A stretch of 28,765 bases of DNA from an uncultured Eubacteriales bacterium. Its GTDB lineage: Bacteria; Bacillota; Clostridia; Oscillospirales; Acutalibacteraceae. Under the pieces are notes generated by a model. It searched no databases and was not told the DNA's origin. It saw only the letters and a list, made by a program, of their open reading frames with translations. The stretch covers positions 1-28,765 of the forward strand of contig CAKRVQ010000001.1 of assembly GCA_934408795.1 (NCBI GenBank), in the 5' to 3' direction. The position numbers and the translations under genes are program-made. This document shows, piece by piece, positions 1-20,223 of the stretch (position 1 is its first letter; every line of letters starts with the position of its first letter).

Positions 1-150
1 CAACAATAAACCGCCGCGCAAAGCGGAAGCGGCGCGTAAAGCGGAGTTAATAAGCAATAGCGCATAGTGAAAAAGCATGGTGTCGGCTCCGCCGACGAAC
101 ATCCGTAATCGTCAGCCTGACCCTGTATTTTTTCATCCACCGCCCATCAC

Positions 151-217
151 CGCCCACCGCCGCGCACCCTGCGCGCGCCGACGGGCGGCGCTTTTTTGCA
201 CTCTACCGCGAGTAGAG
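151..217 (+). repeat. Module B1: terminator-like hairpin plus CTCTAC palindrome
   Basis: A nested GC-rich hairpin (outer arm GGGCGG, inner stem CGCGC around ACCCTGC) is followed by six T residues and then by the palindrome CTCTAC-CGCGA-GTAGAG at 201-217. The 67 nt are identical to 984-1050. The stem plus T run looks like an intrinsic terminator in the plus direction, although no gene in the window ends just upstream. Confidence 0.75.
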
Positions 218-240
218 CCGCGGTTTTTTCTTCGCTTTTT

Positions 241-263
241 GCGCCCGCGCAAGGTGCGGGCGC
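241..263 (+). repeat. Hairpin with conserved GCAAGGT loop
   Basis: An 8-bp perfect stem, GCGCCCGC/GCGGGCGC, encloses the loop GCAAGGT. The same loop is found in hairpins with different stems at 1184-1206, 1475-1499, 10994-11016, 17526-17548 and 21237-21255. Confidence 0.75.
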
Positions 264-466
264 GGCAGGGGGTCCGTACACTGCCTAAATTGGGAAGTTA
301 CAAGTAAAAGTGCATAGCGAAAAAAAGTAAAGTGTCGGCTCCGCCGACAGAAATTCATACACGACCGCCGCTTTGCCTTGACTCCCCTCCAATCCTTGCC
401 GACTACCGGTTCACAACTCATAAGAGGTCCATCGCTACCCGCCTGCCGAAGCGCTTATATTGTCCG

Positions 467-483
467 TGTCGAATTTTGTCTAA
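467..483 (+). promoter_or_regulatory. Tandem Spo0A-box-like sites, copy 1
   Basis: TGTCGAA at 467-473 and TGTCTAA at 477-483 are spaced 10 bp start to start. TGTCGAA is the known 0A-box consensus. The second box has one mismatch. Spo0A binding is inferred, not shown. Confidence 0.4.
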
Positions 484-627
484 CGCCGCGAACGGGGGGT
501 GGACAGGCGGAGGCGCTCCCTGCCGCGCAAAGCGGAAGTTATTATAAGTTATGGTGAACCGTGAAGAAGTACGGTATCGGCTTCGCCGACGAATATCCAT
601 AGTCATTGTTCAAGCCATCGGGAATAT

Positions 628-657
628 GGTCGGCGACGACAAAAAATGACGCCGACC
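628..657 (+). repeat. Module G hairpin, copy 1
   Basis: Arms GGTCGGCG and CGCCGACC pair perfectly over 8 bp around a 14-nt A-rich loop. The inverted copy at 1616-1645 keeps all eight pairs, two of them as G-U wobbles. Confidence 0.65.
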
Positions 658-691
658 GAAGGCATGACCGACAACAAACAAGAACATAAAT

Positions 692-731
692 GCAACCACC
701 GCCCGCGGCAGTCGTCGCGGGCGGTGGTTGC
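692..731 (+). repeat. Module F hairpin, copy 1
   Basis: A perfect 16-bp stem (GCAACCACCGCCCGCG and its complement) encloses the 8-nt loop GCAGTCGT. No T run follows, so it does not look like an ordinary intrinsic terminator. An inverted relative lies at 1543-1582. Confidence 0.75.
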
Positions 732-983
732 GTATTCAGTCATTAGCGATGCAAACCCAAAGCAGCAAACCGATCGAAGGCAGCGCCGCCCACGCCGAAG
801 GCGCGGCAATCGGGCAGCGGCAGGAGCCCCGATTTTCGAAAGCTCTGATTTTTCGGCAAGGTGCACTCCTTTATATCATACTCTGCCGCCCGTTTCGAGC
901 CCTCCTGTCGGAGGGCGCGCGGCGCTGCCTGCGGTTTGTTTGCCGTCTCAAGCAGATCCTGTCAGCTCAGTCTCCTCTTCCGC

Positions 984-1050
984 CGCCCACCGCCGCGCAC
1001 CCTGCGCGCGCCGACGGGCGGCGCTTTTTTGCACTCTACCGCGAGTAGAG
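984..1050 (+). repeat. Module B2: terminator-like hairpin plus CTCTAC palindrome
   Basis: Identical over 67 nt to 151-217. The outer stem CGCCGCCC/GGGCGGCG (981-988 with 1016-1023) is complete here and is followed by TTTTTT (1025-1030) and the palindrome CTCTAC-CGCGA-GTAGAG (1034-1050). Confidence 0.75.
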
Positions 1051-1183
1051 TCGGCGTGGTACCTCCGGATCGCCGCGACGGGGCGCCGTTCGGAGGATAG
1101 CATCGCGCCTGACAAGGTCGTTTCGGCATTCGCGCTCCCGCTTTAATAAGTGAACGGCACTGTCGATCGAACGCTACCGCCCC

Positions 1184-1206
1184 GCGCCCGCACCTTGCGC
1201 GGGCGC
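1184..1206 (-). repeat. Hairpin with conserved GCAAGGT loop, minus orientation
   Basis: An 8-bp stem GCGCCCGC/GCGGGCGC encloses ACCTTGC, which reads GCAAGGT on the minus strand. Confidence 0.7.
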
Positions 1207-1269
1207 ACAAATCGGATACGGCCAACGCCGCACAAGGTAACTAAAACCGGATTTCAAAATTTACACCTG

Positions 1270-1286
1270 TGTCGAAATTTGTCGGA
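1270..1286 (+). promoter_or_regulatory. Tandem Spo0A-box-like sites, copy 2
   Basis: TGTCGAA (1270-1276) and TGTCGGA (1280-1286) keep the 10-bp spacing. The second box has one mismatch to the 0A consensus. Confidence 0.35.
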
Positions 1287-1350
1287 TTTGCGATTTTAGC
1301 CACGGGTGGGAGCAGGTGGGAGGGAAAACCGTCAGCGTGTTTTTTGCTTG

Positions 1351-1384
1351 CGGGCGGCTTTTTCGCACTCTACTGTGGGTAGAG
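1351..1384 (+). repeat. Module B3, partial
   Basis: Only the right arm GGGCGGC, the T run and the palindrome CTCTAC-TGTGG-GTAGAG (1368-1384) remain. The palindrome stem is unchanged although all five loop positions may vary between copies. Confidence 0.6.
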
Positions 1385-1474
1385 TCGGTCGGGGGTGGGT
1401 CCCATGCATCCCTATATAATGCCCCCACAGTCCTACCGTAATAAACAATCGTGATCGCCCAAAGCGCTCGACTT

Positions 1475-1499
1475 CGCGCCCGCACAGGGTGCGGGCGCG
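1475..1499 (+). repeat. Hairpin with ACAGGGT loop
   Basis: A perfect 9-bp stem CGCGCCCGC/GCGGGCGCG encloses ACAGGGT, a close variant of the GCARGGT loop. Confidence 0.7.
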
Positions 1500-1542
1500 G
1501 ACAAAAGGCATCTTTGGGCTCGCACCGTTAATGGCTGAATAT

Positions 1543-1582
1543 GCAAGCACCGCCCGCGATGACTGCCGCGGGCGGTGCTTGC
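1543..1582 (-). repeat. Module F hairpin, copy 2
   Basis: A perfect 16-bp stem with an 8-nt loop reading GCAGTCAT on the minus strand. Relative to 692-731, stem position 5 has changed from C-G to G-C on both arms. Confidence 0.75.
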
Positions 1583-1615
1583 ATTTATATTTTGGTTGTT
1601 GTCGGTCGCGCATTC

Positions 1616-1645
1616 GGCCGGCATCATTTTCTGTCGTCGCCGACC
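1616..1645 (-). repeat. Module G hairpin, copy 2
   Basis: On the minus strand GGTCGGCG pairs with TGCCGGCC. Two substitutions relative to copy 1 both leave G-U pairs, so the 8-bp stem is preserved if transcribed in this orientation. Confidence 0.6.
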
Positions 1646-1785
1646 ATATTCCCGTCTGCTTAAGCAATGGTTGTGAATTTCCGTCGGCGGAGCCGACACC
1701 ATGCTTCTTCACTATGCACGTTTACTTATTACTTCCGCTTTGCGCAGTGAGGTGCGCCTCTGTCTACCCCTTTCCGTTTGCGGCA

Positions 1786-1802
1786 TTCGACAAAATTCGA
1801 CA
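1786..1802 (-). promoter_or_regulatory. Tandem Spo0A-box-like sites, copy 3
   Basis: On the minus strand two perfect TGTCGAA boxes lie 10 bp apart (plus strand TTCGACA at 1786-1792 and 1796-1802). Confidence 0.4.
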
Positions 1803-2163
1803 CGGGTGACAAAAACGCTTCGGCAGGCGGGTGGCAATGAACCTCTTATGAGTTGTGAACCGGTAGTCGGCAGGGATCGGTGTGGTTCAATGGAGGCAGT
1901 GGTTATGTATGAATTTCCGTCGGCGGAGCCGACACCGCACTTCTTCACTGTTCACTATAACTTATTACTTCCGCCTTGCGCGCCGACAGGCGCGAAGTGT
2001 GTACTTGTCGATGAATATTGCCCTTTTCCACTCATCCGTTCGCGCCCCCGCGCGGGCGCGAAGCCGAGCGCTTTAGGCAAGCTGTTTATTAAGGTAGGAC
2101 TGCGCGGGCATTATATAGGAGTGCGGGAACGCGCCCCGGCTGACTCTACTCACGGTAGAGAGC

Positions 2164-2210
2164 AAAAAAGCCGCCCGTCGGCGCGCGCAAGGTGCGCGGC
2201 AGTGGGCGGC
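2164..2210 (-). terminator. Intrinsic terminator of the glycan operon (module B)
   Basis: On the minus strand GCCGCCC pairs with GGGCGGC around an inner hairpin with a GCAAGGT-type loop, followed by TTTTTT. It lies about 60 nt after the stop of the last gene in the operon. A repeat module therefore appears to serve as the operon terminator. The CTCTAC palindrome follows at 2144-2160. Confidence 0.8.
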
Positions 2211-2272
2211 GGGTGCTCTGTACAACATCATCACCAAAACAAAAATCGGCGCATTTTGTGCTTGCTGCCGAT

Positions 2273-3535
2273 TCAATTGCTTTTGTCTGCGGAAAAATCG
2301 CGGCTTATAAATTCCAAAATTCCTGCTGCCTGTTTTACCGCATTCTTTTCCTCGGCAACGAATTTTCGGGCGCGTTCGCCCATGGCTTTACGCTCTTTAT
2401 CATCGACGGCGCAGATCCTCTCGATCGTATCTGCCAGCGCTTCCGCTGAATTGTTCGGCACATAATTCAGATAAGAATCGTACTCATCGGGAATTCCGTC
2501 CAGCTTATAGGCGACGACCGGAACGCCCGAAGAAAGATATTCCATTGTTTTTGAGGGAAAACTGTATTTTGTAAATTCCTCGTTGTTCTGTCTCGGGTTG
2601 ACAAGTACGGTCGCCCCTCTCTGGAGAGCAAGCGCCTCTCTCCTGTCGACCTTTCCGAGATATATGATCCGTTTGTCCTGCGATTCGGATATCGCCTTTT
2701 CGGCTTCGCCGAAGCCGCATATCACAAGCAAAAGGTCGGGAGCCGATATCTTACTAAAGGCTTCAAGAAGAGTACCGATCCCGAATTCATAGTTAAGAGT
2801 GCCGGTGTAGAGCACATAACGCTTTCCCGAAAAGCGGCTTGCCGCCGTCTCGTCGACCTCGACGCTTTCGTCGGGCGCAATACCCTCCATGACCGTATAC
2901 GGCACCCGAATGTTCAGCTTTTTTGCCATCTGATCGGTCAGAAGTACAAATCGGTCGACATACCGATAGAGGGAATTGCTTTTTTTCGTCTCATAGTCAT
3001 TGAAAAGCTTTTTGATGCCGTGAAGCGTTCGTGCGCTGAGAAATTCGGGCAGGTCGGCTATTATGCAGCAGACCTCAATGCCTGAGTTCAGGCGCTTTAC
3101 ATAACGGGCAAGCTGCAAAAAGATCGTGGATGCGGTGTACATCATAAGGATCTTTCTGCGGCCCGATCCGTCAAACACCCACCGCCGCACTTCTTTCTTA
3201 AAGCAGGGAAGATTGCAGAACTGCTTGACTATCGACATATTCGTGCAGCCGACTATCTTGTCGTCCGAACGGTATTTTTCCGTATGCTCAAAGACATATT
3301 CGGCTATGCGCCTGTCCGCATAACCGTTGGGATAGCTGTCGATCGGAAGATAATCGACTATTCTAATGGTTCCGCAGTCGTTTGCGTCCAGTCCGTCTAT
3401 GATGTTCCACTGCAGTGCATTTCCCGCATCCTGCATGCCGGACTTCATTTTAGCCTTTATTTCGGCTTCCTTTTCCTTGGGAAAGACCTTTCCCAAGAAT
3501 AAAATATCAAGATCCAAATTCAACGATCTCCTCAC
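2273..3535 (-). CDS. Glycosyltransferase, GT4-like (GT-B fold)
   Basis: A 420-residue protein predicted to transfer a sugar from an activated donor to a growing surface glycan on the cytoplasmic side of the membrane. The C-terminal half is a typical group 1 glycosyltransferase domain: YTGTLNYEFGIGTLLEAF (243-260), VICGFGE (271-277), and FPSKTMEYLSSGVPVV (326-341), which carries the donor-binding Glu. The N-terminal acceptor domain is divergent, so donor and acceptor cannot be named. It is the last gene of the operon, starting about 5 bp after the deacetylase stop. The start is uncertain. GTG at 3535 has only a distant AAGGA. TTG at 3523 has GAGGAG 4 nt upstream and would begin NLDLDILFLGKVFP, a natural start for this fold. 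Confidence 0.85.
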   Translation of the reverse strand: MRRSLNLDLDILFLGKVFPKEKEAEIKAKMKSGMQDAGNALQWNIIDGLDANDCGTIRIVDYLPIDSYPNGYADRRIAEYVFEHTEKYRSDDKIVGCTNMSIVKQFCNLPCFKKEVRRWVFDGSGRRKILMMYTASTIFLQLARYVKRLNSGIEVCCIIADLPEFLSARTLHGIKKLFNDYETKKSNSLYRYVDRFVLLTDQMAKKLNIRVPYTVMEGIAPDESVEVDETAASRFSGKRYVLYTGTLNYEFGIGTLLEAFSKISAPDLLLVICGFGEAEKAISESQDKRIIYLGKVDRREALALQRGATVLVNPRQNNEEFTKYSFPSKTMEYLSSGVPVVAYKLDGIPDEYDSYLNYVPNNSAEALADTIERICAVDDKERKAMGERARKFVAEEKNAVKQAAGILEFISRDFSADKSN

Positions 3536-3540
3536 GAATA

Positions 3541-4377
3541 TCAGATATCCTTAAAGCTTATTATCTTCGAATCGGAGTTTTGGAAAAGCTTGTAAAACTC
3601 GTCCGACATAAAGCATTTGTATTCGTCGACCCTGTCGCTTGTGATGTTCCCGAATAACGGGTTGTCTCCCGATGTCGCGGGATGTATTATGACCTCAACG
3701 GTCTTCTTCTTCGTTTTTCCGAGTCCCGCCCTTAATCTGTTGATATCGGTTTTTGAGTGATTTACGAAGGTTACTATCCTGCCGTCGGGCATGGCAAACT
3801 TCCGCTTTTCAAAAATGCCGAATTTGATATTGACATATGACGATACCAAAAACTCGCGAAGCTTCCGCGCCGCTCCTTTGCAGTTGTCATAGTCTATGTA
3901 GACTCTCCTAAAATTTCTGGTGCAGCGGATGTTGTGCTTTAAGGCGACCTTTTCAAACACACGGAACTCTTTCGGGTAAAGGGATGAGTTTTCGTGGGTG
4001 TTCCAGTACTCGGGCTCTCCGAAGGCATCTCGGAACAGTCGGTACTGATTTTCAAGCTCCAGCTCCAACTCGTCGGGGTTTATCAGACCCTTGCGGTACC
4101 GACTGCGAAATTCGCCCAAAGAAAGAAAGCTGCCGTCTTCCGTCACAAGGGTGGGAATATCTTTTATGTCGCTGACCGGGTTCCCGCAGGTCACATTCCA
4201 GTGAATACCTATGGAAAAGTCGGGACGGCCGATAAGGGGAGAATCCGAAAAATCTCTGCGGAAATTCATCAAAACATTCGTCGTCGAAAGGATGCCTTTG
4301 TCGGCAAGATCCTCGATCGCGCGGTCGACCTCTTCGCAAAAGCCGTAATCGTCGGCGGTAATCAAATATCGTTTCAT
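3541..4377 (-). CDS. YdjC/ChbG-HpnK family carbohydrate deacetylase
   Basis: About 278 residues, the usual length for the YdjC-like family of metal-dependent deacetylases, which remove acetyl groups from N-acetylated sugars. Visible family motifs are TADDYG near the N terminus (paired Asp), GIHWN near residue 58 (metal His), THEN near 127 (His) and IIHPATSGD near 230 (catalytic-region His). In this operon it could de-N-acetylate a hexosamine in the glycan or its lipid-linked precursor. That substrate is inferred from context only. ATG at 4377 is preferred. An in-frame TTG at 4380 has slightly better spacing from AAGGG. The upstream GT2 stop lies within 8 bp, so translation is probably coupled. 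Confidence 0.85.
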   Translation of the reverse strand: MKRYLITADDYGFCEEVDRAIEDLADKGILSTTNVLMNFRRDFSDSPLIGRPDFSIGIHWNVTCGNPVSDIKDIPTLVTEDGSFLSLGEFRSRYRKGLINPDELELELENQYRLFRDAFGEPEYWNTHENSSLYPKEFRVFEKVALKHNIRCTRNFRRVYIDYDNCKGAARKLREFLVSSYVNIKFGIFEKRKFAMPDGRIVTFVNHSKTDINRLRAGLGKTKKKTVEVIIHPATSGDNPLFGNITSDRVDEYKCFMSDEFYKLFQNSDSKIISFKDI

Positions 4378-4384
4378 CAAAACA

Positions 4385-5200
4385 CTATCCCTTCATAAGA
4401 AAAGCTTTGTAGGAACGCAGATCTTTATAACCCCGCATACCCGCGCGAAATAACTTTACCGCTTCCTTTCGCGACACCGAAACGGGCTTGCGCAGCACGG
4501 CGTAAAGGAATAAATAAGCGGGGACCAGAAGTTTCGGTGATGATGCGGCGGTTATCGCACCCGATGTGTAAAGCTTCTCCCTCGGATCGTCGGAATAACA
4601 GGTGGATACCGCATAAGAGACATCCCCGATCCTTTTCGGCGAGAGCATTACCCTCAGTCCCGAGGACATCATCCGACGGAGCCAGATCGAGTCCTCGCCG
4701 TTGCTGAACAGGCATCCTCCTCCGAAGAGTGTGGAAAATGCGATGTTGCTTTTAAGGACGGCATCTCTCCTGAGAGCGATCCTGGGCGCTCCGTAAGGAT
4801 TTCTGGACCAGGTGTGCATATACTTTTTCTTTTTTATCTGAGTGGGCATTCGTCCCATTTCGGGCGTGCTCGTTCCGATGTTGAAAATAATTATATCCGC
4901 CTTGGGATTTTCGGCAAACTCGTTTAATATGACCGATTCGTAGCCGTCGTCGTAACGCATATCGTCGTCCGCAAACAGACAGATATCTCCCGAGGCATAA
5001 TCGAAAGCGAGATTACGATTCATCCCCACACCGCGGGTCTCGGTGGAGATCATTTTTGCCGTATGACCGTCAAAGCGGAGCTCCTCGTAAGCCGTTCGGT
5101 CGCACTGATTGGCAAACACAACATCGGAGGAGATGTTCATCTCGCTTATCTTCGAAAAATCGGACTGATGCATCGTTGCAACCAATACTTCGAAATTCAT
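4385..5200 (-). CDS. Glycosyltransferase family 2-like protein
   Basis: A 271-residue GT-A type glycosyltransferase. RGVGMNRNLA (56-65) and FADDDMRYDDG (76-86) form the nucleotide-sugar and metal-binding (DXD) region. GGCLFSNGEDSIWLRRM (161-177) holds the ED catalytic-base motif typical of GT2. The C-terminal part is basic, with a hydrophobic stretch (PAYLFLYAVL), and may contact the membrane. ATG start with AGAGGAA 8 nt upstream. A 94-bp gap separates it from licD upstream, the largest gap in the operon, with no terminator visible. The sugar transferred cannot be predicted. Confidence 0.85.
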   Translation of the reverse strand: MNFEVLVATMHQSDFSKISEMNISSDVVFANQCDRTAYEELRFDGHTAKMISTETRGVGMNRNLAFDYASGDICLFADDDMRYDDGYESVILNEFAENPKADIIIFNIGTSTPEMGRMPTQIKKKKYMHTWSRNPYGAPRIALRRDAVLKSNIAFSTLFGGGCLFSNGEDSIWLRRMMSSGLRVMLSPKRIGDVSYAVSTCYSDDPREKLYTSGAITAASSPKLLVPAYLFLYAVLRKPVSVSRKEAVKLFRAGMRGYKDLRSYKAFLMKG

Positions 5201-5294
5201 TCGAACATTTCCTCTTCTCTCAGATCAATTTTGATTCGTCCGCAAAATTCACGCAATGTGGCAGAATCTGACGAAAATCTACCTCGGTGTTACA

Positions 5295-6101
5295 TTACTC
5301 GGAGTGCTGCGCCCACTTTATGCGGTCGGGGGACGGCGGCTTCATATAGTCCCCGAAACGATCGGAAAGGAATTCGTGCAGCTTTTTCGGAGCCCGCAGC
5401 TCGACCGTTTCAAAAGGGATATACTCCGTCTCGTCAAAGTATTCGCGCTTGTATATCGCATTCGAAAAAACGGCTTTGCCTAAGAAGTTGCAATAATAAT
5501 TTGTCTTGCGGTTCCGATACCTGTAGACCTGCTTCAGACCGTGCTTAACAAGGAATTTGTCGGGCATTTTTGCCATGACCTTGAGCGCAAACCCCAAAAA
5601 TCCTCCGCGGCGCGTATAGCCGCGAACGGCAAGACCCTTCATGATGACATACTTAGCCCACAGACATTGATGCAGCTGCTCCAAACGATTATTCGGACAG
5701 GTGTGAAGAATAAAGATGTCTATGTATATCCCCTGATGAATGTCCCAGTCTCGGAGCGACTCTTCAATATAAGTGGTGTTGTTCATACGGATCTTTGAGA
5801 TCGTGACCATTCCGTCGGTCGCACCCCACTCCTGAAGATAAAACTTATCATGATCGCCCTTCTCGGAAAAGACCTCGCGAAAGCGCTCATACTGTGAGGG
5901 TGTCATGAATATGTCAAGGTCGTCATCCCACGGGATAAACCCACCGTGCCGCTTCGCACCCAGCGCGGAACCGCCCATCAGACAATAGTCAATGTCGTTT
6001 TCGCGGCAGAGAGCGTCCGCATAGACGGCGATCTCAAGTATCTTATCCTGAAGAGGCAAAAAGCCGTAACGGTCGTCAAGACCCTCGCGCATATACTTCA
6101 C
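5295..6101 (-). CDS. LicD family phosphotransferase
   Basis: A 268-residue LicD/fukutin-type protein. Known LicD enzymes transfer phosphocholine from CDP-choline to surface glycans. The related fukutin enzymes transfer ribitol phosphate from CDP-ribitol. The signature spans residues 42-66: MGGSALGAKRHGG followed by FIPWDDDLDIFM, with the paired Asp residues for metal and nucleotide binding. The start is GTG at 6101, 4 bp after the FrhB-like stop, with an ATG three codons inside as alternative. The cluster contains a TagD-like cytidylyltransferase but no LicA/LicC-like choline activation gene, so the donor may be CDP-glycerol rather than CDP-choline. That donor is inference. Confidence 0.88.
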   Translation of the reverse strand: MKYMREGLDDRYGFLPLQDKILEIAVYADALCRENDIDYCLMGGSALGAKRHGGFIPWDDDLDIFMTPSQYERFREVFSEKGDHDKFYLQEWGATDGMVTISKIRMNNTTYIEESLRDWDIHQGIYIDIFILHTCPNNRLEQLHQCLWAKYVIMKGLAVRGYTRRGGFLGFALKVMAKMPDKFLVKHGLKQVYRYRNRKTNYYCNFLGKAVFSNAIYKREYFDETEYIPFETVELRAPKKLHEFLSDRFGDYMKPPSPDRIKWAQHSE

Positions 6102-6105
6102 AGAC

Positions 6106-7407
6106 TCATACCCCCATTATTTTTTTAAGACATTTCCGTATTGGCGACGGCAGGGAATAGTATAAACGCTTGGTTTTGTACGATCCCGGATCAGCCCACT
6201 TTTTAAGGAGCTCCTCGGTGTCAAGCTCCCGACTGTCCTTTATGAATTCGTCTCTCCCCGACGGCCTCTCGGTGCCCGAACCGAAAATGACACCGTCCCC
6301 GATCAGCCGCTCGACATCCATGGGGAAATGTACCGTGTCCTCTTTGCAAAGCTCCCAGAACGCCGAGCCCTTCGGCGAATTGACAACAACGGTGGAGACG
6401 CCGTCAAAACGGTCTATCCCGCCGAGGTATCTGTCTATCTCGTGAAAATCTCCGACGGTAATGTCGGAAAAGCGTTCTCTGCCGGCGAACCGACAGTTGT
6501 AGCAGCTCTCGCGCAGATCGATATATTTTTGAAACACGGCGTAAAACGGGGATCCGAAGTAGTAGTCGCTTACCGTCTTTTCCGTGCCGTCCTTTTCATA
6601 GACTTCGGTAAAATAGTGAGGGGTCGACCCGTGCTTTCTCTTTGTTCGGAACTCATACCCCTTTACCTTGCCGCCGAAACGCCTGCCGTCAACGGCAAGA
6701 CAATCGTCAAAAAATGCCTGACTCGGGACACCGTGGCAAAAGAAGTCAACTGTCAGAAGGTTGGAGTATTCCCTGCCGAGATACTTTCTGAGGGCTGCGA
6801 CCTGACATGGGGTCGACACAAACATCACCCCTTGCCCCGCGGTCAATCGGTCGCGGATCTCTTTATAACTGCCCGTCAGATCGCTCTGAAGATATTTGGA
6901 TTTGTAAAGAGGGGCGAGAGAATCGACCGAATCGGCGGAGGTGCACCTGAGCTTCATATCTTTATCAAAAGCGGCACCGTAGACGGTGTAGCCCGAACGG
7001 ATGGCTTTCCTTGCGAAAACTCCGAACATTCCGCCCGAGGAACCGGAAAAACGGATGCTGCCGTCCTTCGCATAAGCGGCAAAGACCCGCTGATCCGCGG
7101 AGGGTGTCCCGGCAGGGGAAGTTTCGGCATAAGGGACCTCAGCGGAAGAAATCTCGGTAAAGGAGGCTGCGGCGGAAGATCCTTCGGAAAGAGCGGCATC
7201 GGAAGAAGGGACTCCGACCGAAGGCGCAAGTCCCGGGATCATGGGGCAGACCTTGTCGCACAGACCGCAGTCAACGCATTTTTTTGCGTCGGCAGCGGGG
7301 AAAAGGTGCCCGAGGGTCCCTTTTTTCATGGTTATGCAGCCGCGCGGACAAACAACACTGCAGGCTCCGCACCCGCAGCAGTCGCTTTCTCTGACAATGT
7401 TGATCAT
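6106..7407 (-). CDS. Coenzyme F420 hydrogenase/dehydrogenase beta subunit-like iron-sulfur protein
   Basis: A 433-residue protein with two N-terminal [4Fe-4S] ferredoxin motifs, C10-x2-C13-x2-C16-x3-C20-P and C44-x2-C47-x2-C50-x3-C54-P, followed by an FrhB-type domain (SGSSGGMFG near 121-129, STPCQVAALR, DFFCHGVPS, YNCRF, DITVGDFH). FrhB-like proteins of this kind are common in capsule and surface-polysaccharide loci of Clostridia and Bacteroidetes, where their redox reaction is not well defined. Residues about 59-106 are a Ser/Ala/Pro/Glu-rich low-complexity linker between the domains, which I regard as unusual. The ATG lies 2 bp after the cytidylyltransferase stop, with AGGATATAGTT as ribosome binding site. 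It may oxidise or reduce a sugar or nucleotide intermediate. Confidence 0.85.
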   Translation of the reverse strand: MINIVRESDCCGCGACSVVCPRGCITMKKGTLGHLFPAADAKKCVDCGLCDKVCPMIPGLAPSVGVPSSDAALSEGSSAAASFTEISSAEVPYAETSPAGTPSADQRVFAAYAKDGSIRFSGSSGGMFGVFARKAIRSGYTVYGAAFDKDMKLRCTSADSVDSLAPLYKSKYLQSDLTGSYKEIRDRLTAGQGVMFVSTPCQVAALRKYLGREYSNLLTVDFFCHGVPSQAFFDDCLAVDGRRFGGKVKGYEFRTKRKHGSTPHYFTEVYEKDGTEKTVSDYYFGSPFYAVFQKYIDLRESCYNCRFAGRERFSDITVGDFHEIDRYLGGIDRFDGVSTVVVNSPKGSAFWELCKEDTVHFPMDVERLIGDGVIFGSGTERPSGRDEFIKDSRELDTEELLKKWADPGSYKTKRLYYSLPSPIRKCLKKIMGV

Positions 7408-7409
7408 AA

Positions 7410-7829
7410 CTATATCCTCGTCAGCTTTTCGGAAAGCAGCGTGGAAGATGTTCCGTCGGTGTGGGGCAGAAATACCAGGTCGACGCCTACTGCGGCGAGA
7501 CGCTTTTCAATGTCGTTGTAAAGCCCCGAGCCCTTCCAGTCGTCGCCGTGAAATATCGCGTTGAACCCAAGGCTTTGCCACGCCTCAAATTTGTCCAGAT
7601 TGACTTGCGGAACCACGCGGTCGACATATTTTATCGCCTCAACGATCGCCGCACGCTCATCAAACGGAATGATCGGGGTCTTGTGCTTGTACGACTGCAC
7701 CAGCTCGTCGGTACTGACCCCCACGATAAGGTAGTCGCACTGCTCCTTCGCCCGCCTCAATATGTTGAGATGACCGATATGAAACATATCAAAAACACCG
7801 GTGGTATAACCAATTTTATATTTCTTCAT
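7410..7829 (-). CDS. tagD: Glycerol-3-phosphate cytidylyltransferase-like protein (TagD family)
   Basis: A 139-residue nucleotidyltransferase of the size of TagD (about 130 residues), which makes CDP-glycerol from CTP and glycerol 3-phosphate for teichoic acid-type polymers. It shows GVFDMFHIGH (11-20, the HxGH motif), STDELV (39-44), FHGDDWKG (93-100) and the C-terminal GTSST (126-130), matching RTSTT-type motifs. Related enzymes act on other polyol or amino-alcohol phosphates, so the substrate is probable, not proven. ATG start with AAAGGAAAG ribosome binding site. It lies 14 bp after the upstream GT2 and directly before the FrhB-like gene. It probably supplies the CDP-activated group used by the LicD protein. 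Confidence 0.88.
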   Translation of the reverse strand: MKKYKIGYTTGVFDMFHIGHLNILRRAKEQCDYLIVGVSTDELVQSYKHKTPIIPFDERAAIVEAIKYVDRVVPQVNLDKFEAWQSLGFNAIFHGDDWKGSGLYNDIEKRLAAVGVDLVFLPHTDGTSSTLLSEKLTRI

Positions 7830-7843
7830 ATGTATCTTTCCTT

Positions 7844-8683
7844 TTATGACCTTGCAAATTTGCGGAACAGAAAACCTCTTATCTTATTCGGCATCATTAC
7901 CTGAAGTATAAAGCGTTCGGATACATTTATCAGATATCGCGGCAATCCGATAATACCGTTTTTGAGCATGTAGCGCTGAAGCTTTGCTTCGCTTTTAAAA
8001 TACTTTACACCGCCGCGGCGGCTATACATATCTTCGCCCACACGAACATTGGCGAGGTCATACTGAACATTGGCGAATTTTTTGCCGATCAGCGACATAC
8101 GGAGCCACAAATAATAGTCTTCTTCACAAAACCAATCCACGTAACCTCCGGCTTCCTCAACCGCGGCTTTTTTGAACATGACCGTTATCTGATTCATCGG
8201 ACACCGCTTTTTCAGATACTCCTTGATCTCGGCGTCGGTTTCGGGAACGATCCGCCTTCCGACACAGTTATCGGGGCTGCCGATAAACTCTCTGATGTTC
8301 CCGCCTACTACGGAAGTGTCGGGATCACGCTTGAAGATATCCAGTTGCTTTTCAAAGCGGTCGGGAAGCGACAGATCGTCTGCGTCCATCAGCGCAATAA
8401 GATCACAAGCGCAATTTTCAAAACAGACTCTGCGGGCTTCGCCGTGTCCGACATTTTTCTCCAAATATACAACCTTGAAACCAATGCTCTTTCGGGGCAG
8501 AGTATCGCGGTACTTTTGAATGACACTCTCGGTCTTTTCCGGAATGGGACCGTCTACCGTCAAAACCATTTCGGTCGGCTGAACAGTTTGCTCGGATATA
8601 CTTTCTATAGCAGCGTCGAAAAAGTCGGGATCGTCGCCTGCCCATACGCACATTGAAACCGAGAATTCAATTTTTTCGCTCAC
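7844..8683 (-). CDS. Glycosyltransferase family 2
   Basis: A 279-residue GT2 enzyme and first gene of the seven-gene operon. The N terminus has the nucleotide-binding start FSVSMCVWAGDDPDFF, LTVDGP (41-46), KNVGHGEARR (76-85) and MDADDLSLPDRF (99-110, DXD). The acceptor side has CEEDYYLWLRM (186-196) with the ED base motif. This arrangement resembles AmsE/WcaA-like exopolysaccharide transferases. GTG start at 8683 with AAAGGAAG about 9 nt upstream. An ATG nearby is out of frame. Transcription is expected from the promoter at 8806-8834. Sugar specificity is unknown. Confidence 0.87.
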   Translation of the reverse strand: MSEKIEFSVSMCVWAGDDPDFFDAAIESISEQTVQPTEMVLTVDGPIPEKTESVIQKYRDTLPRKSIGFKVVYLEKNVGHGEARRVCFENCACDLIALMDADDLSLPDRFEKQLDIFKRDPDTSVVGGNIREFIGSPDNCVGRRIVPETDAEIKEYLKKRCPMNQITVMFKKAAVEEAGGYVDWFCEEDYYLWLRMSLIGKKFANVQYDLANVRVGEDMYSRRGGVKYFKSEAKLQRYMLKNGIIGLPRYLINVSERFILQVMMPNKIRGFLFRKFARS

Positions 8684-8689
8684 AACACA

Positions 8690-8799
8690 TCTTCCTTTAA
8701 CGGTTGTTTTTTAGGGTATCAAAGAACGGGTGTCCGGGCGGCAACCGCCGGGGCTCCGTCCAAAAACGATTCATTTGTCTTATGATAAAAGGTCATACA
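8690..8799 (-). other. 5' leader of the glycan operon
   Basis: About 110 nt separate the predicted transcription start from the first gene. The leader contains the GC-rich hairpin CCGGCGG-TTG-CCGCCCGG-like element around 8740-8757. No match to a known riboswitch was recognised. Confidence 0.35.
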
Positions 8800-8805
8800 C
8801 ATAAT

Positions 8806-8834
8806 ATAATATCATATATTTGAAGGTTTATCAA
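8806..8834 (-). promoter_or_regulatory. Sigma-A type promoter for the glycan operon
   Basis: On the minus strand TTGATA (8829-8834) and TATTAT (8806-8811) are separated by 17 bp. The surrounding DNA is AT-rich in a GC-balanced genome, and the next start codon downstream belongs to the first operon gene. Confidence 0.75.
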
Positions 8835-8900
8835 TAGTTATAATCGGCATTTGCGGCGTGATAATCGGCTTACGAACAACGAATTTCGACTGTCAGAACG

Positions 8901-8928
8901 AAAAAAAGCAGCCGCCCTGACGGGCGGC
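8901..8928 (-). terminator. Intrinsic terminator, second of two after the sugar transferase
   Basis: On the minus strand GCCGCCC-GTCA-GGGCGGC is followed by GCTTTTTTT. It resembles the outer stem of repeat module B, and the flanking GCACTCTAC is a decayed half of the module B palindrome. It insulates the glycan operon promoter from upstream transcription. Confidence 0.8.
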
Positions 8929-9052
8929 GTAGAGTGCGCTGCGGCAGGCAGCTTGTGATTCGGATTCCGATCAACCCTGACAGGCGGTTACGGAATAATA
9001 AGCAGTGATCGTCTTTACCCTTGCTTCCGTGACCGACTTCAAAGGAAATGAG

Positions 9053-9080
9053 AAAACGGACTTCGGGCGATACCGAAGTC
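9053..9080 (-). terminator. Intrinsic terminator, first after the sugar transferase
   Basis: On the minus strand GACTTCGG-TATCGC-CCGAAGTC is followed by CGTTTTC. It lies about 120 nt past the sugar transferase stop. The T run is short, hence the second terminator at 8901-8928 may matter. The rest of 8929-9197 shows no gene. Confidence 0.6.
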
Positions 9081-9197
9081 GGAAGGGTTTCGGCAGAGAA
9101 GATGCACATTTTACACACAGGGGCCCGGCGAAACGGTTGACAGGCGAATATGCGGTTTGTAGGCATATTAACCGCACGATGCGGCCGTCAAACCGGT

Positions 9198-9893
9198 TTA
9201 TGCCTTCAAAAGCTCCTTTGCCTCTGACTGCTTTTCTTCATATTCCTCTTCGGCAATCTTACCCTCTTTTACAAGCCAGTCACCGAAATCCATATCCGAA
9301 GCGGTTCCTACCCTCACCGTGTCGCTCCGCTTAAGAACCTTCCACACTGTGCGGAAAATGATTTTCATATCCTTGACAGCCGTGATTCCGCTATCTATGT
9401 ATTCAAGATCGTAGGCAAATTTCTGCTCCCATGTTATGTTGTTTCGGCCGCTCACCTGCGCAAGTCCCGTAAGCCCGGGTCTGACACTGTGCCGGCGGCG
9501 CTGCTCGGGCGTCATAAACACCATATCCCGCACAAGCTGGGGTCGCGGACCGACTATTGCCAAGTCACCCTTCATAATGTTTATCAGCGACGGCAACTCG
9601 TCCGCTGAGGTGGAGCGCAGAAATCTGCCGTAACCGTTCAGTCTCTCCGCGTCGGGCAGCAGATTGCCTTCGGAATCTTTTTTATTGCTCATGGTTCGGA
9701 ATTTGATGAGCCTGAAAATTTTTTCGTTTCCGCTTTCACCTTTCATTCCCGGCCGAAGTTGGGTGAAGAACGGATTGCCGCGCATAGCAACGGCACCCAC
9801 CGCCGTCAGAACAAGCAGTATCGGGGACAACACAGCAAGAGCAAGAAAGGACAACAGAAAATCAAAAAATCTTTTAAAGTATTTGGCGTACAT
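9198..9893 (-). CDS. Undecaprenyl-phosphate sugar phosphotransferase (bacterial sugar transferase)
   Basis: A 231-residue membrane-anchored polyprenyl-phosphate glycosylphosphotransferase of the small PglC/WcaJ C-terminal type. It starts a lipid-linked glycan by moving a sugar phosphate from a UDP-sugar to undecaprenyl phosphate. Residues 8-36 form the N-terminal membrane helix. KFRTM (64-68), the catalytic pair in SADELP (D98, E99), GPRPQL (115-120) and RPGLTGLAQVSGR (138-150) are diagnostic. The C-terminal tail is long and Glu/Lys-rich. It lies next to the glycan operon but has its own promoter (10005-10033) and terminators, so it is transcribed separately. GAAGGG lies about 11 nt before the ATG. 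It probably initiates the glycan that the downstream enzymes extend. Confidence 0.92.
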   Translation of the reverse strand: MYAKYFKRFFDFLLSFLALAVLSPILLVLTAVGAVAMRGNPFFTQLRPGMKGESGNEKIFRLIKFRTMSNKKDSEGNLLPDAERLNGYGRFLRSTSADELPSLINIMKGDLAIVGPRPQLVRDMVFMTPEQRRRHSVRPGLTGLAQVSGRNNITWEQKFAYDLEYIDSGITAVKDMKIIFRTVWKVLKRSDTVRVGTASDMDFGDWLVKEGKIAEEEYEEKQSEAKELLKA

Positions 9894-10004
9894 TTACACT
9901 GTTTCCCTTCTCTCATACATAAATAAAACAACTGCGGCAGAGGGATCAGCATAATTTTGTTTTCCCGAATGCCGTCGCCCCGATAATTATATTTACACAA
10001 TCGT

Positions 10005-10033
10005 ATTATACTTTATTACATCAACCAAGTCAA
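10005..10033 (-). promoter_or_regulatory. Sigma-A promoter of the sugar transferase gene
   Basis: On the minus strand TTGACT (10028-10033) and a perfect TATAAT (10005-10010) lie 17 bp apart. The predicted leader is about 105 nt. The remaining gene-free DNA up to 10150 shows only short hairpins. Confidence 0.85.
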
Positions 10034-10152
10034 TGGTTCTTCTCGACATAGAAACGGAAGATATTGCGCATCCGTCAGACGGGATGGGCGGAAAAGTCAG
10101 CATCGGGACGCATGCCGACCGCCCGTGAAAAAAGAGAGGGAGGGGGTTGGTG

Positions 10153-10193
10153 AAAAAAAACGGGCGGAGCCGACAGTCTCGATCGGCTCCGCC
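10153..10193 (-). terminator. Intrinsic terminator of mscL
   Basis: On the minus strand the 11-bp stem GGCGGAGCCGA/TCGGCTCCGCC with a 9-nt loop is followed by CG and eight T residues. It begins about 15 nt after the mscL stop. Confidence 0.92.
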
Positions 10194-10208
10194 TGCGCGA
10201 AAACGGTT

Positions 10209-10721
10209 TTATCTTTTTAACAATGCGTCTCTGATCTCGGTGAGCAGGGCTTCCTGCCTCTGAACGCTCTCTTCGGCTGAAATAAGACGGTCTTCTTTGT
10301 CTTTCACAGCGGCTTCCGCCTCTGCGGCCTTCCTCTCTTCTTCTGCCTTTTTCTCTTCTTCGGCTGCTTTTTCGGCAGCTATCTTTTTTGCCTCAATGGT
10401 ATTCTTTGCCTTCATAATGACCTTAAGAAACAGGAATATGCAAAGCGCGGTTATCAAAAAGTCGATTATCGTCTGCAGCCATGTGCCCCAAAGAATGGCA
10501 ACCTCTTCAATGCCCGCATCCGGGTCGGCGGCGGTTATGACCGTCTTTACCGAGTCAAGGTTGCCGCTCGGTATGATAAACCCGAGGATCGGATTTATTA
10601 TATAGTTGACAAGCCCCGTCACGATTTTTCCGAATGATGCACCTATCACAACGCCGACCGCCATGTCGATGACATTGCCGCGCATTGCGAAATCCTTGAA
10701 ATCTTTAAGAAATTTTCTCAT
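10209..10721 (-). CDS. mscL: Large-conductance mechanosensitive channel MscL
   Basis: Encodes the pentameric inner-membrane channel that opens under membrane tension and protects against hypo-osmotic shock. MRKFLKDFKDFAMRGNV aligns with the MscL amphipathic N-terminal helix. AVGVVIGASFGKIV is the first, pore-lining membrane helix with its Gly/Ala packing, and LWGTWLQTIIDFLITALCIF the second. The C terminus LLTEIRDALLKR matches the conserved MscL end. Between the second helix and this end lies a charged Ala/Glu/Lys helix of about 50 residues, so the protein (170 residues) is some 30-40 longer than the E. coli form. The ATG at 10721 has GGTGG 5 nt upstream. GTG at 10730 is an alternative. Monocistronic, with its own promoter and terminator. 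Confidence 0.95.
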   Translation of the reverse strand: MRKFLKDFKDFAMRGNVIDMAVGVVIGASFGKIVTGLVNYIINPILGFIIPSGNLDSVKTVITAADPDAGIEEVAILWGTWLQTIIDFLITALCIFLFLKVIMKAKNTIEAKKIAAEKAAEEEKKAEEERKAAEAEAAVKDKEDRLISAEESVQRQEALLTEIRDALLKR

Positions 10722-10749
10722 ACCGTCCACCCCACCTTAATTTAGCTAC

Positions 10750-10778
10750 ATTATATCCGTACGGCACCGTCTTGTCAA
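10750..10778 (-). promoter_or_regulatory. Perfect-consensus sigma-A promoter of mscL
   Basis: On the minus strand TTGACA (10773-10778) and TATAAT (10750-10755) have a 17-bp spacer, exact consensus at all twelve positions. It abuts the composite repeat that starts at about 10800. Confidence 0.9.
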
Positions 10779-10907
10779 TAAGAAAAGCTTTGATCGCCCC
10801 GACGCGTAAAGAGAAAGTAATAAGTAATAGTGCATAGTGAAAAAGTACGGTGTCGGCTTCGCCGACGAATAATCATAACAGTCAGCCCGATCCTGAGTTT
10901 TTCATTC

Positions 10908-10970
10908 GCCGCCCACCGAGCACTCCCGCGCGCGACGGGCGGCTTTTTTTGTACTCTACCGTGAGTAGAG
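10908..10970 (+). repeat. Module B5: terminator-like hairpin plus CTCTAC palindrome
   Basis: GCCGCCC (10908-10914) pairs with GGGCGGC (10937-10943), followed by seven T residues and CTCTAC-CGTGA-GTAGAG (10954-10970). Confidence 0.7.
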
Positions 10971-10993
10971 TCGCGGTTTACTCGTTGCTTTTT

Positions 10994-11016
10994 GTGCCCG
11001 CGCAAGGTGCGGGCAC
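10994..11016 (+). repeat. Hairpin with conserved GCAAGGT loop and compensated stem
   Basis: The stem GTGCCCGC/GCGGGCAC encloses GCAAGGT. Compared with 241-263, position 2 changed from C to T and its partner from G to A, so pairing is kept. Confidence 0.75.
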
Positions 11017-11271
11017 GGCGGGGGTTCGTGAACTGCCAAAATCAGAAAGTAATTAATAAAAGCGTATAGTGAAAGAGTAAGGTGTCGGCTTCGCCGACGG
11101 AAATCCATGCATAATCGCCGCTACGCCTTGAATCCCGCCGCCGTTGCCGCTCATCGGTTCACGCACGCAAGAGGTTTACCGCACCCTCACCGCCCGCGCC
11201 CTGCGCGGGCGCACCGATCGAAAGCGGACAACACCTGACACGGTAAAAACCAAATTCAAAAAACACACCCG

Positions 11272-11288
11272 TGTCGAATTTTGTCGAA
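11272..11288 (+). promoter_or_regulatory. Tandem Spo0A-box-like sites, copy 4
   Basis: Two perfect TGTCGAA boxes lie 10 bp apart (11272-11278, 11282-11288). No gene start is close enough to name a target. Confidence 0.4.
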
Positions 11289-11362
11289 CGGCGCGGGCGT
11301 GGGGGGGCAGACGGGTGCGCGTCGATGCAGGATTTGCCTCTGCCGTCCGCTTACTGCAACCC

Positions 11363-11400
11363 CGCCGCCCACCGCGCACTCCCTCGCGCGGTGGGCGGCG
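11363..11400 (+). repeat. 15-bp perfect hairpin, diverged module B
   Basis: CGCCGCCCACCGCGC pairs perfectly with its complement around an 8-nt loop. The following T run is poor (TCTTTG), and the CTCTAC palindrome downstream (11410-11426) is decayed, so termination here would be weak. Confidence 0.65.
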
Positions 11401-11459
11401 TCTTTGCACGCTGCCGCAAGTAGGGTCGGTTGCTGCATCTTCCGCACTCGCCCCGCACC

Positions 11460-11660
11460 CACCGCCGCGTAAAGAGAAAGTAATAAGTAATAGTGCATAG
11501 TGAAAAAGTACGGTGTCGGCTTCGCCGACGGAAACCAGCAGCAGTTGTTTAAGCAGACAAGAGTGATCCGAGCCGGTCTTTAGAGGACAAATCGAGCGCA
11601 GGCAGCGCGCGCCGACGGGCGGCGTTTTTGTACTCTACCGTGAGTAGAGTTGATTCGGTG
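11460..11660 (+). repeat. Partial composite repeat next to the glycosidase gene
   Basis: Module A with its full AT-rich lead (11466-11530, an exact 65-nt copy of 10803-10867) is followed by a truncated module B: right arm GGGCGGCG, T5 and CTCTAC-CGTGA-GTAGAG (11633-11649). The left arm of B is missing, so it should not terminate efficiently. Confidence 0.7.
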
Positions 11661-11721
11661 AACTGCGGGGTCGATTAGGCGACGCACCGTCTTGTCTGCC
11701 GCGAGGGTTTTCCTTGCCGCA

Positions 11722-20143: not shown

Positions 20144-20184
20144 AAAAAAGCACCGCCTTCGGACTTTATGTCCGAAGGCGGTGC
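20144..20184 (-). terminator. Intrinsic terminator of the alpha/beta hydrolase gene
   Basis: A perfect 14-bp stem, GCACCGCCTTCGGA and its complement, with a 7-nt loop. On the minus strand it is followed by TTTTTTCTTT, a strong signal. In the plus direction the tail TTGTCAT is weak, so it may act in both directions between the convergent genes but mainly serves the minus strand. Confidence 0.9.
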
Positions 20185-20223
20185 TTGTCATATGCCGTAG
20201 CTGCCGCCGAGTCAAAATACCCG

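Follow-up and report, generated by a model that had tools for sequence, protein, structure and literature searches.

What has assembled the two gene-free stretches of repeated blocks in this 28,765-nt piece of DNA (the window)? Island 1 covers approximately positions 1-2230, and island 2 approximately 10800-11660. The original prediction was a miniature dispersed element, either mobile or copied by recombination.

Two islands share an ordered set of modules

Self-BLAST of the window identifies three long copies with a common module order, at 31-767 (plus), 2212-1510 (minus; copy beta) and 10800-11320 (plus; copy delta). Partial copies lie at 983-1489 (gamma) and 11478-11650, which bears out those predicted at 980-1500 and 11460-11660. 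The main matches pair 30-435 with 10800-11182 (75.6%, E 4e-67), 293-762 with 1972-1512 minus (79.6%, E 4e-111), 1351-1489 with 2177-2046 minus (E 2e-25) and 1185-1284 with 11191-11286 (E 4e-13). Local alignment of the two islands scores 326, whereas 50 dinucleotide shuffles average 26 and peak at 35. For 1-767 against the inverted 1510-2215 the score is 464 (shuffles: mean 23, maximum 32). These scores lie far above chance, and the composite repeat is real.

The modules are given below. Module A was scored with model R1, built from seven window copies (including a1, without a2) and the relatives' rows of alignment A2; R1 matches those rows by construction.

45..97, plus: module A copy a1, degenerate heptamer array and hairpin GTCGGC-tcc-GCCGAC (R1 68.7 bits)
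150..217, plus: module C, GC-rich stem, T-run and CTCTACCGCGAGTAGAG hairpin; same as 983-1050 (self-BLAST, exact match)
238..265, plus: hairpin H2, GCGCCCGC..GCGGGCGC; counterpart at 10991-11018 is GTGCCCGC..GCGGGCAC
295..349, plus: module A copy a2 (R1 52.5 bits; outside the R1 building set)
361..516, plus: modules K and E; E has TGTCGAATTTTGTCTAA at 467-483
539..591, plus: module A copy a3 (R1 59.3 bits)
592..767, plus: module D and hairpin H4 (692-731), a further stretch common to two long copies (agrees with 1681-1510 minus in 144 of 174 columns)
983..1050, plus: module C of partial copy gamma (exact match to 150-217)
1185..1284, plus: stretch F with E-like TGTCGAAATTTGTCGGA (1270-1286); common to 11191-11286 (self-BLAST)
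1351..1489, plus: second C and block G; inverted counterpart 2177-2046 (self-BLAST)
1510..1681, minus: D and H4 of inverted copy beta (self-BLAST, alignment)
1682..1734, minus: module A copy b3 (R1 72.1 bits)
1754..1905, minus: K and E of beta, with a perfect TGTCGAATTTTGTCGAA (1802-1786)
1918..1970, minus: module A copy b2 (R1 75.3 bits)
2046..2209, minus: beta's G and C, flanked by its A copies and by the glycosyltransferase operon, whose 3' end is at 2273
10815..10867, plus: module A copy d1, same sequence as d3 (R1 80.6 bits)
10904..11018, plus: C and H2 of copy delta (self-BLAST, alignment)
11047..11099, plus: module A copy d2 (R1 67.8 bits)
11108..11320, plus: K and E of delta with F inserted; contains a perfect TGTCGAATTTTGTCGAA (11272-11288)
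11360..11428, plus: second C of delta, diverged (alignment)
11478..11530, plus: module A copy d3 (R1 80.6 bits)
11590..11650, plus: third C of delta (alignment)

Eight A modules occur in the window, each at the head of a cassette. An order A-B-C-A-E-D had been proposed for three copies. Ordered modules do recur, but beta reads C-x-A-K-E-A-D-H4, with no A ahead of its first terminator-like module, and all three long copies continue to a third A (539-591, 1734-1682 minus and 11478-11530). The second hairpin block of beta differs from that of the other long copies and is common to 1406-1489. Delta carries 11183-11268 and 11321-11462 between its modules, both of which the copy at 31 lacks. Island 1 contains a long inverted repeat, whose arms, 150-767 and 1510-2209, enclose a 742-nt centre. 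The left end of this island may be cut off by the window edge. Island 2 is in direct order, without inversion.

Both predicted exact segments are present. Their maximal lengths are 68 nt (150-217 with 983-1050, first noted as 67 nt) and 65 nt (10803-10867 with 11466-11530). Each is confined to one island, while the islands differ by about 25%. Within islands, d1 equals d3 at 53/53 positions and the C copies at 150-217 and 983-1050 agree at 68/68; between islands, A copies are 74-89% and C copies 74-84% identical. The remaining copies within one island reach only 69-91% identity. Homogenisation inside the islands is partial, and the exact matches support the suggested duplication or gene conversion locally, for single modules.

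The two islands flank a glycosyltransferase cluster (2273-9893) and mscL, with copies in direct order. They could therefore be recombination sites at which this cluster is exchanged.

The islands look non-coding, and no Y1 transposase is tied to module A in the genomes examined

The absence of a reading frame is supported. Between 293-767 and its inverted copy, substitutions are distributed 20/28/26 over the codon phases, and 9 of the 12 gaps are not multiples of three. ORFs of at least 60 aa overlap the islands in 25 cases, and the seven that were scanned have no Pfam match. The islands look non-coding, and a coding remnant was rejected on these three results.

Rfam gives no hit at gathering score in the window, and a known RNA was rejected. 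All seven low-threshold matches in 1-2272 fall under their gathering scores; in 13 loci of relatives, Rfam finds only tRNAs and one ZTP riboswitch. Phage or plasmid origin was also rejected, since 1-2230 has no match in phage or plasmid records and the viral contigs scanned contain no exact pattern match.

The Y1 transposase (PF01797) is present in 9 of 14 genomes, including one or two in G411 and G647, which have no A. It was not found in G530, which has the most A copies, or in G563, G359, G495 and G019, genomes that may be incomplete. R1 has no match at the 12 transposase places fetched out of 16. RAYT-driven spread is unsupported on these results.

Module A is a heptamer array followed by a hairpin

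In module A, a degenerate heptamer array is followed by a short hairpin. In the eight window arrays, identity at lag 7 is 0.51, compared with 0.18-0.34 at lags 1-6 and 8-9. It is 0.69 in 67 arrays of relatives, partly by construction, as these were chosen by likeness to a periodic consensus; shuffling gives 0.36. Runs contain 3 to 6 heptamers, or 10 in one case, and this variation blurs the ends.

Of 103 distinct arrays, those of the window among them, 58 have a hairpin behind them and the other 45 do not; 200 shuffles of the following 34 nt give a mean of 2.7 and a maximum of 8. Stem sequences differ among relatives. Alignment A2 holds 25 arrays of relatives, nearly all with 7-nt stem sides, and seven of the eight window copies. 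The other 26 of the 51 hairpin-bearing arrays of relatives (58 less the seven of the window) mostly have other stem lengths. In the 32 rows of A2, pre-chosen for having a hairpin, 11 cells are changed on both sides of the stem (shuffled mean 2.4), nine of them in one pair. The covariation score exceeds that of all 500 shuffles. Two of the 7 pairs carry changes on both sides, a number that 172 of 500 shuffles reach, and 348 of 500 reach the number of further pair types; neither measure is above the shuffles. Paired changes also occur in the window, in H4 (GCAACC..GGTTGC vs GCAAGC..GCTTGC) and H2 (GCGCCC..GGGCGC vs GTGCCC..GGGCAC).

Module A recurs in relatives

The window was placed by RpoD alone. 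The best score is to G495 (85% over 353 aa), the sole genome of its genus compared. Query 10800-11330 matches 48 of 300 family genomes (two candidates scored per genome), query 31-770 matches 9 of 61, and query 25-2230 matches G495; for all three queries, the matches listed fall at A positions only. Twelve genomes, hand-picked mostly for carrying the repeat or for close RpoD, were searched with the best 150 of 504-1376 candidates scored in each. Ten of them hold 129 A sites, 46 in G530. A phylum-wide sample has A in 3 of 299 genomes, including G001, all three already in the search of one order; this search took 19 candidates per genome under stricter filters. The family, 12-genome and phylum counts are lower bounds, because few candidates were scored per genome and the phylum filters were stricter. 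A strict A pattern has one match in genome_contigs, an Oscillospiraceae goat MAG.

Among the 129 sites of the 10 hand-picked genomes, 20 opposite-strand pairs and no same-strand pairs lie within 150 nt, and 38 distinct sites belong to pairs. In the paired units, roughly 8 to 60 nt separate the two inverted termini. Unlike the relatives, the window has no opposite-strand pair within 150 nt in the R1 search.

A search of relatives for further copies had been suggested as a check. Module A recurs in many of them; for the remaining modules, the relatives that were searched yielded nothing convincing. Queries holding K matched at A positions only, among the matches listed. In the genus of G359, query 605-1670, which spans C, F/E, G, D and H4 but no A, hit only 4 of 70 genomes, with five short matches of 20-36 nt and a best E of 0.001. 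It matched 0 of 55 near relatives by RpoD, an uninformative empty answer, as this search had no positive control. Only A is found with confidence in relatives, and the larger composite has so far been seen only in the two islands.

Competing explanations

Could the whole A-C-A-E-A composite be a miniature mobile element that moves as a single unit? Its one order in three long copies and its lack of coding signal would fit. However, the copies start and stop at different modules, self-BLAST reveals no common sharp or inverted ends among the window composites, and the returns for query 605-1670 speak against it. We consider this quite unlikely. The long inverted repeat of island 1, with arms 293-762 and 1972-1512 at 79.6%, might instead be what remains of a larger decayed element, such as a fold-back transposon or a prophage end. 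This is very improbable given that island 2 is direct, that none of 30 window proteins scanned against Pfam belongs to a mobile-element family, and that phage and plasmid records have no match to 1-2230. Of the original prediction, the non-coding ordered modules and the dispersed component A stand, but the composite as a mobile unit is so far unsupported.

The islands might also have arisen without mobility, the heptamers by slippage and the inverted copies by template switching, with selection retaining the hairpins as terminators or transcript ends. The variable heptamer number agrees with this, as do the arrays of relatives, which abut terminators, tRNA ends and promoter-like sequence. In 1-2400, 17 entries are terminator-like, compared with 3.7 in shuffles, although they include several overlapping entries for a single hairpin. 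Island 2 has no such excess (1 vs 1.9), however, and the C of the inverted copy is absent from the entries in 1-2400. Slippage alone is insufficient for similar arrays plus hairpins at dozens of sites in one genome (46 in G530), and this account is unlikely. A regulatory island, in which the tandem TGTCGAA pairs of E would bind Spo0A and control the neighbours or titrate Spo0A, seems most improbable. TGTCGAA is the 0A-box core in the excerpted text of PMC3485338, a SpoVT homologue lies within the window, and four sites at ≤3 mismatches (two perfect) compare with 0.23 expected. Sites in copies of one repeat are not independent, though, and the exact tandem site is found in 0 of 55 loci of relatives. 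At ≤3 mismatches, relatives show four weak sites, three of them in terminator stems, and 1-2400 has no promoter-like site.

Relation to known repeats

REP sequences, BIMEs and REPINs, in the excerpted text of PMC3733652 and PMC3116915, are short intergenic hairpins, often in inverted pairs and sometimes clustered. As far as these excerpts describe them, module A is alike in being a scattered intergenic hairpin with inverted pairs in relatives, and clusters. The over-represented inverted doublets of REPs and REPINs are found in the relatives (20 vs 0 pairs), not in the window. Module A differs in having no GTAG or conserved unpaired CGTC tag in alignment A2 and the variants; the foot of its hairpin is part of the stem and varies with it (GTATCC..GGATG, GTGCC..GGCAC). 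It also differs in the heptamer array ahead of the hairpin and in the lack of a tied Y1 transposase in the genomes examined. As excerpted, the catalogue PMC3733652 places tagged hairpin repeats mainly in Proteobacteria, and the words Clostridi- and Firmicutes are absent from its main text.

BOX of Streptococcus pneumoniae is, in the excerpt of PMC3049150, a composite intergenic repeat of 67-637 bp with variable module number and predicted stem-loops. The window composite is likewise modular, hairpin-bearing and intergenic, a likeness of modular design. Its modules and sizes differ, and it was seen only in two islands of one contig, one with an inverted copy. The heptameric simple sequence repeats of Xanthomonas and Nostoc are, by the excerpt of PMC4692102, G-rich intergenic arrays of 7-nt units in variable number. 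Module A shares such units in that description, but they are A-rich here, and many of the arrays have a hairpin behind them. The paired A units of relatives, with inverted termini around a short centre, resemble MITEs in part, a likeness that does not extend to the window composites, which have no common inverted ends. No partner insertion sequence was found, and the window islands are GC-rich (~57%). Judged from titles and abstract openings, the literature search returned no paper on this repeat.

A model for the islands

We think it somewhat more probable than otherwise that the islands are REP/BIME-like mosaics built on a dispersed hairpin repeat, with partial homogenisation at the local level, and not a proven composite transposon. 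We favour this because of the module order and identity, the local identity, the dispersion of A and its range in the phylum-wide sample, the hairpin behind the array, the paired changes and the inverted pairing. Module A would be a degenerate local version of a repeat, probably non-autonomous, that is scattered among relatives in one bacterial order. It would head every cassette, followed by hairpin payloads (terminator-like C, H2, K-E and D-H4) so far seen only here. We infer that A is mobile. The repeat may spread slowly through a hairpin or single-strand transposition step, with the help of a trans-acting enzyme or of repair synthesis, and settle in intergenic gaps beside terminators and promoters, where it may affect neighbouring transcripts. 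Neighbouring copies would then multiply the cassettes by unequal exchange, inverted duplication and gene conversion. This would account for the conserved order and the inverted copy as well as for the exact matches of 65-68 nt.

A wider proposal is possible, if doubtful: that these repeats form an undescribed class of intergenic element in one bacterial order, with heptamer-array terminal repeats and a hairpin core whose stem changes while its place and pairing stay constant. In some genomes it would head rows of varied small hairpins on a constant linker. Close to tRNA ends, it would carry a second copy of the local terminator arm. The window islands would then be an enlarged, lineage-specific form with long payloads. 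An A-type repeat in a gut-bacterial order, with changing yet often paired stems, would offer a new system for the spread of hairpin repeats without an evident transposase.

Two gene-free islands are assembled from shared modules

Two islands in the window, at about 1–2272 and 10731–11721, have no likely gene. Island 1 is on the 3′ side of a run of genes on the minus strand (2273–9893; glycosyltransferase, YdjC, LicD and related genes), and island 2 has mscL on one side and a rhamnosidase-like gene on the other. Upstream of mscL, and adjoining the first module of island 2, is a TTGACA-17-TATAAT sequence matching 12 of 12 consensus positions (10778–10750, minus strand). Self-comparison and alignment resolve the islands into four copies.

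Module copies in the two islands
31–767, plus strand: alpha (A1, C, H2, A2, K, E, A3, D, H4)
2212–1510, minus strand: beta (C, G, A2, K, E, A3, D, H4)
983–1489, plus strand: gamma (C, F with E, C′, G)
10800–11650, plus strand: delta (A1, C, H2, A2, K, F, E, C′, A3, C″)

Local alignment scores exceed the average of 50 dinucleotide shuffles more than tenfold. The module order of the original prediction, a composite A-B-C-A-E-D repeat, holds for alpha and delta and fails for beta, which lacks the first A; A3 is reached in all three long copies. D and H4 are common to alpha and beta (144 of 174 alignment columns). Each of the eight A modules heads a cassette, and neighboring A starts on one strand within one copy are 232–431 nt apart.

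The islands appear to be non-coding. Between alpha and beta, the three codon phases carry nearly equal shares of the substitutions, 9 of 12 gaps are frame-disrupting, and the 7 island ORFs scanned (25 ORFs overlap the islands) gave no Pfam match, bearing out the earlier claim that no reading frame is present. Outside the islands, a 39-nt palindrome (92%) at 20148–20186 between two convergent ORFs has no match to them and is likely a two-way terminator.

Two exact repeat segments had been proposed to reflect recent duplication or gene conversion, and both were present on re-check. The first and third A of island 2 are identical, as are the C modules of alpha and gamma in island 1. Identity between islands is 74–89% for A and 74–84% for C. 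Other within-island pairs are often no closer (69% for the second and third A of alpha, 87% for the first and second A of island 2, 69% for C′ and C″), and duplication or conversion is therefore shown for one pair per island, not for whole islands.

Module A is a heptamer array, often followed by a hairpin

Module A comprises about four 7-nt units with a consensus near AAGTAAT AAGTAAT AGTGAAT AGTGAAG AAGT. Lag-7 identity is 0.51 in the eight window copies and 0.69 in 67 arrays from relatives, which were chosen for likeness to this consensus. Of 103 distinct arrays, 58 are followed within 8 nt by a hairpin with 5 or more pairs (2.7 on average in shuffles). The stem variants, each with its complement, include GTCGGC, GTCTGC, GTCCGC, ATCCGC and GTGCC, among others.

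Pairing was assessed in 32 chosen rows (30 distinct), selected for having a hairpin. Pairing cells made up 97.1% against 90.1% in shuffles, changes on both sides occurred in 11 cells against a shuffled mean of 2.4 (9 of the 11 in a single pair), and the covariation score exceeded all 500 shuffles. Both-side variation was found in only 2 of 7 pairs, a number reached by 172 of 500 shuffles, and further pair types did not rise above shuffles (348 of 500 reached the observed value). The stem likely pairs, the sequence support coming mainly from one pair and from stem variants of other lengths outside the alignment. At locus L167 of relative G530, one array has grown to 10 heptamer units, against 3 to 6 in other runs, which points to slippage.

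Module A is dispersed in relatives

A strict A pattern matched once in the genome collection, in an Oscillospiraceae MAG whose genome became the first center (G001). The window RpoD matches genomes of the same order, scoring best against G495 (85%). With 10800–11330 as query, at least 48 of 300 genomes in the family of G044 matched, the places among the matches listed being A positions; with 31–770, 9 of 61 genus genomes matched, likewise at A. The payload modules were within these queries too, the listed matches again lying at A, and searches of 70, 55 and 1 relative genomes gave them no convincing match.

Searched with a covariance model of A, 10 of 12 chosen genomes yielded at least 129 sites between them (at least 46 in G530, 17 in G563 and 14 in G001); the candidates scored in G647 and G411 included no A sites. 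In a phylum-wide draw the model matched at least 3 of 299 genomes (G001, G014 and G019). All three were already known from the order search, and A is thus likely confined to one order.

Among the 129 sites, pairs within 150 nt were opposite-strand in 20 cases and same-strand in none. An inverted array lies at most 170 nt upstream in 47 of 84 distinct arrays. For 35 of these 47, the 20 nt directly ahead of the forward array can pair over 10 nt or more with sequence on the upstream side of the inverted one; the corresponding figure for other loci is 21%. A layout of terminator hairpin, inverted heptamer array, second terminator-arm copy and forward array is seen at L005, L010, L012, L026, L044, L062, L069, L074 and other relative loci.

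The array stands behind an Rfam-identified tRNA gene at L010, L044 and L136, and by eye at further loci. At L155 (312–620, G563) a unit occurs twice in tandem, at a distance of 185 nt; both units contain A-like arrays as an inverted pair and a putative small ORF (MKATGG-like, by eye), and L154 and L156 hold similar units. At L015, L017, L020, L028, L041, L073 and L172, in several genomes, the sequence ahead of the array is nearly the same: GATGCTCATCC, followed by a short loop rich in A/T and by GGATGAGC or GGATGGGC. At some of these loci it lies at the 3′ end of apparently one gene, a queA candidate, so inheritance, as opposed to fresh insertion, may account for some A sites.

Rows of small hairpins with differing stems and a constant linker occur at L077 (395), L142 (390), L146 (both strands), L153 and L169 of G530, and at L030, L048 and L061. 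The six G530 rows, located behind module A, have 3 to 6 RCATCAT linkers spaced 18–23 nt apart; similar rows with a TTACAT linker occur at L030 and, in G495, whose RpoD is closest to that of the window, at L061. A 4-bp stem is missing from 1 of 4 spacers in one L146 row and 1 of 2 in L048. Rfam returned only tRNAs and a ZTP riboswitch from 13 relative loci.

Modules C and E

Module C at 150–217 and 983–1050 fits a predicted intrinsic terminator. A scan of 1–2400 gave 17 terminator entries, several overlapping, against 3.7 in shuffles; the C of beta was absent from them, and entries were not in excess in island 2. Module E carries tandem TGTCGAA sites, two perfect and two imperfect, all copies of one repeat. 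Spo0A binds pairs of its boxes in tandem, and the sites in E resemble such pairs, a likeness we treat as a lead only. TGTCGAA is the core motif of the Spo0A box (PMC3485338). Among 55 relative loci, no exact tandem site and four weak ones were found, three of the latter within terminator stems.

Proposed origin of the islands

We propose that module A is a dispersed, hairpin-bearing intergenic repeat, probably non-autonomous, and that the islands are clusters grown through local duplication, inversion and conversion. A REPIN-like partner enzyme was also considered. Y1 (IS200/REP-type) transposases are present in 9 of 14 genomes. Since none was found in G530 and A was absent from the 12 transposase loci examined, such a partner is not supported, with the proviso that the genomes may be incomplete. 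BIME (PMC3733652, PMC3116915) and BOX mosaics (PMC3049150) are like the islands in how they work. The islands do not pass as REPs, however, on either the tag test or the transposase test. We place the islands among mosaic intergenic repeats, as a distinct variant.

The cell-surface glycosyltransferase cluster and mscL (2273–10730) have one island on each side, and the alpha, gamma and delta copies around the cluster stand in direct order. Recombination between such direct-order copies could let the surface glycosyltransferase cluster be exchanged.
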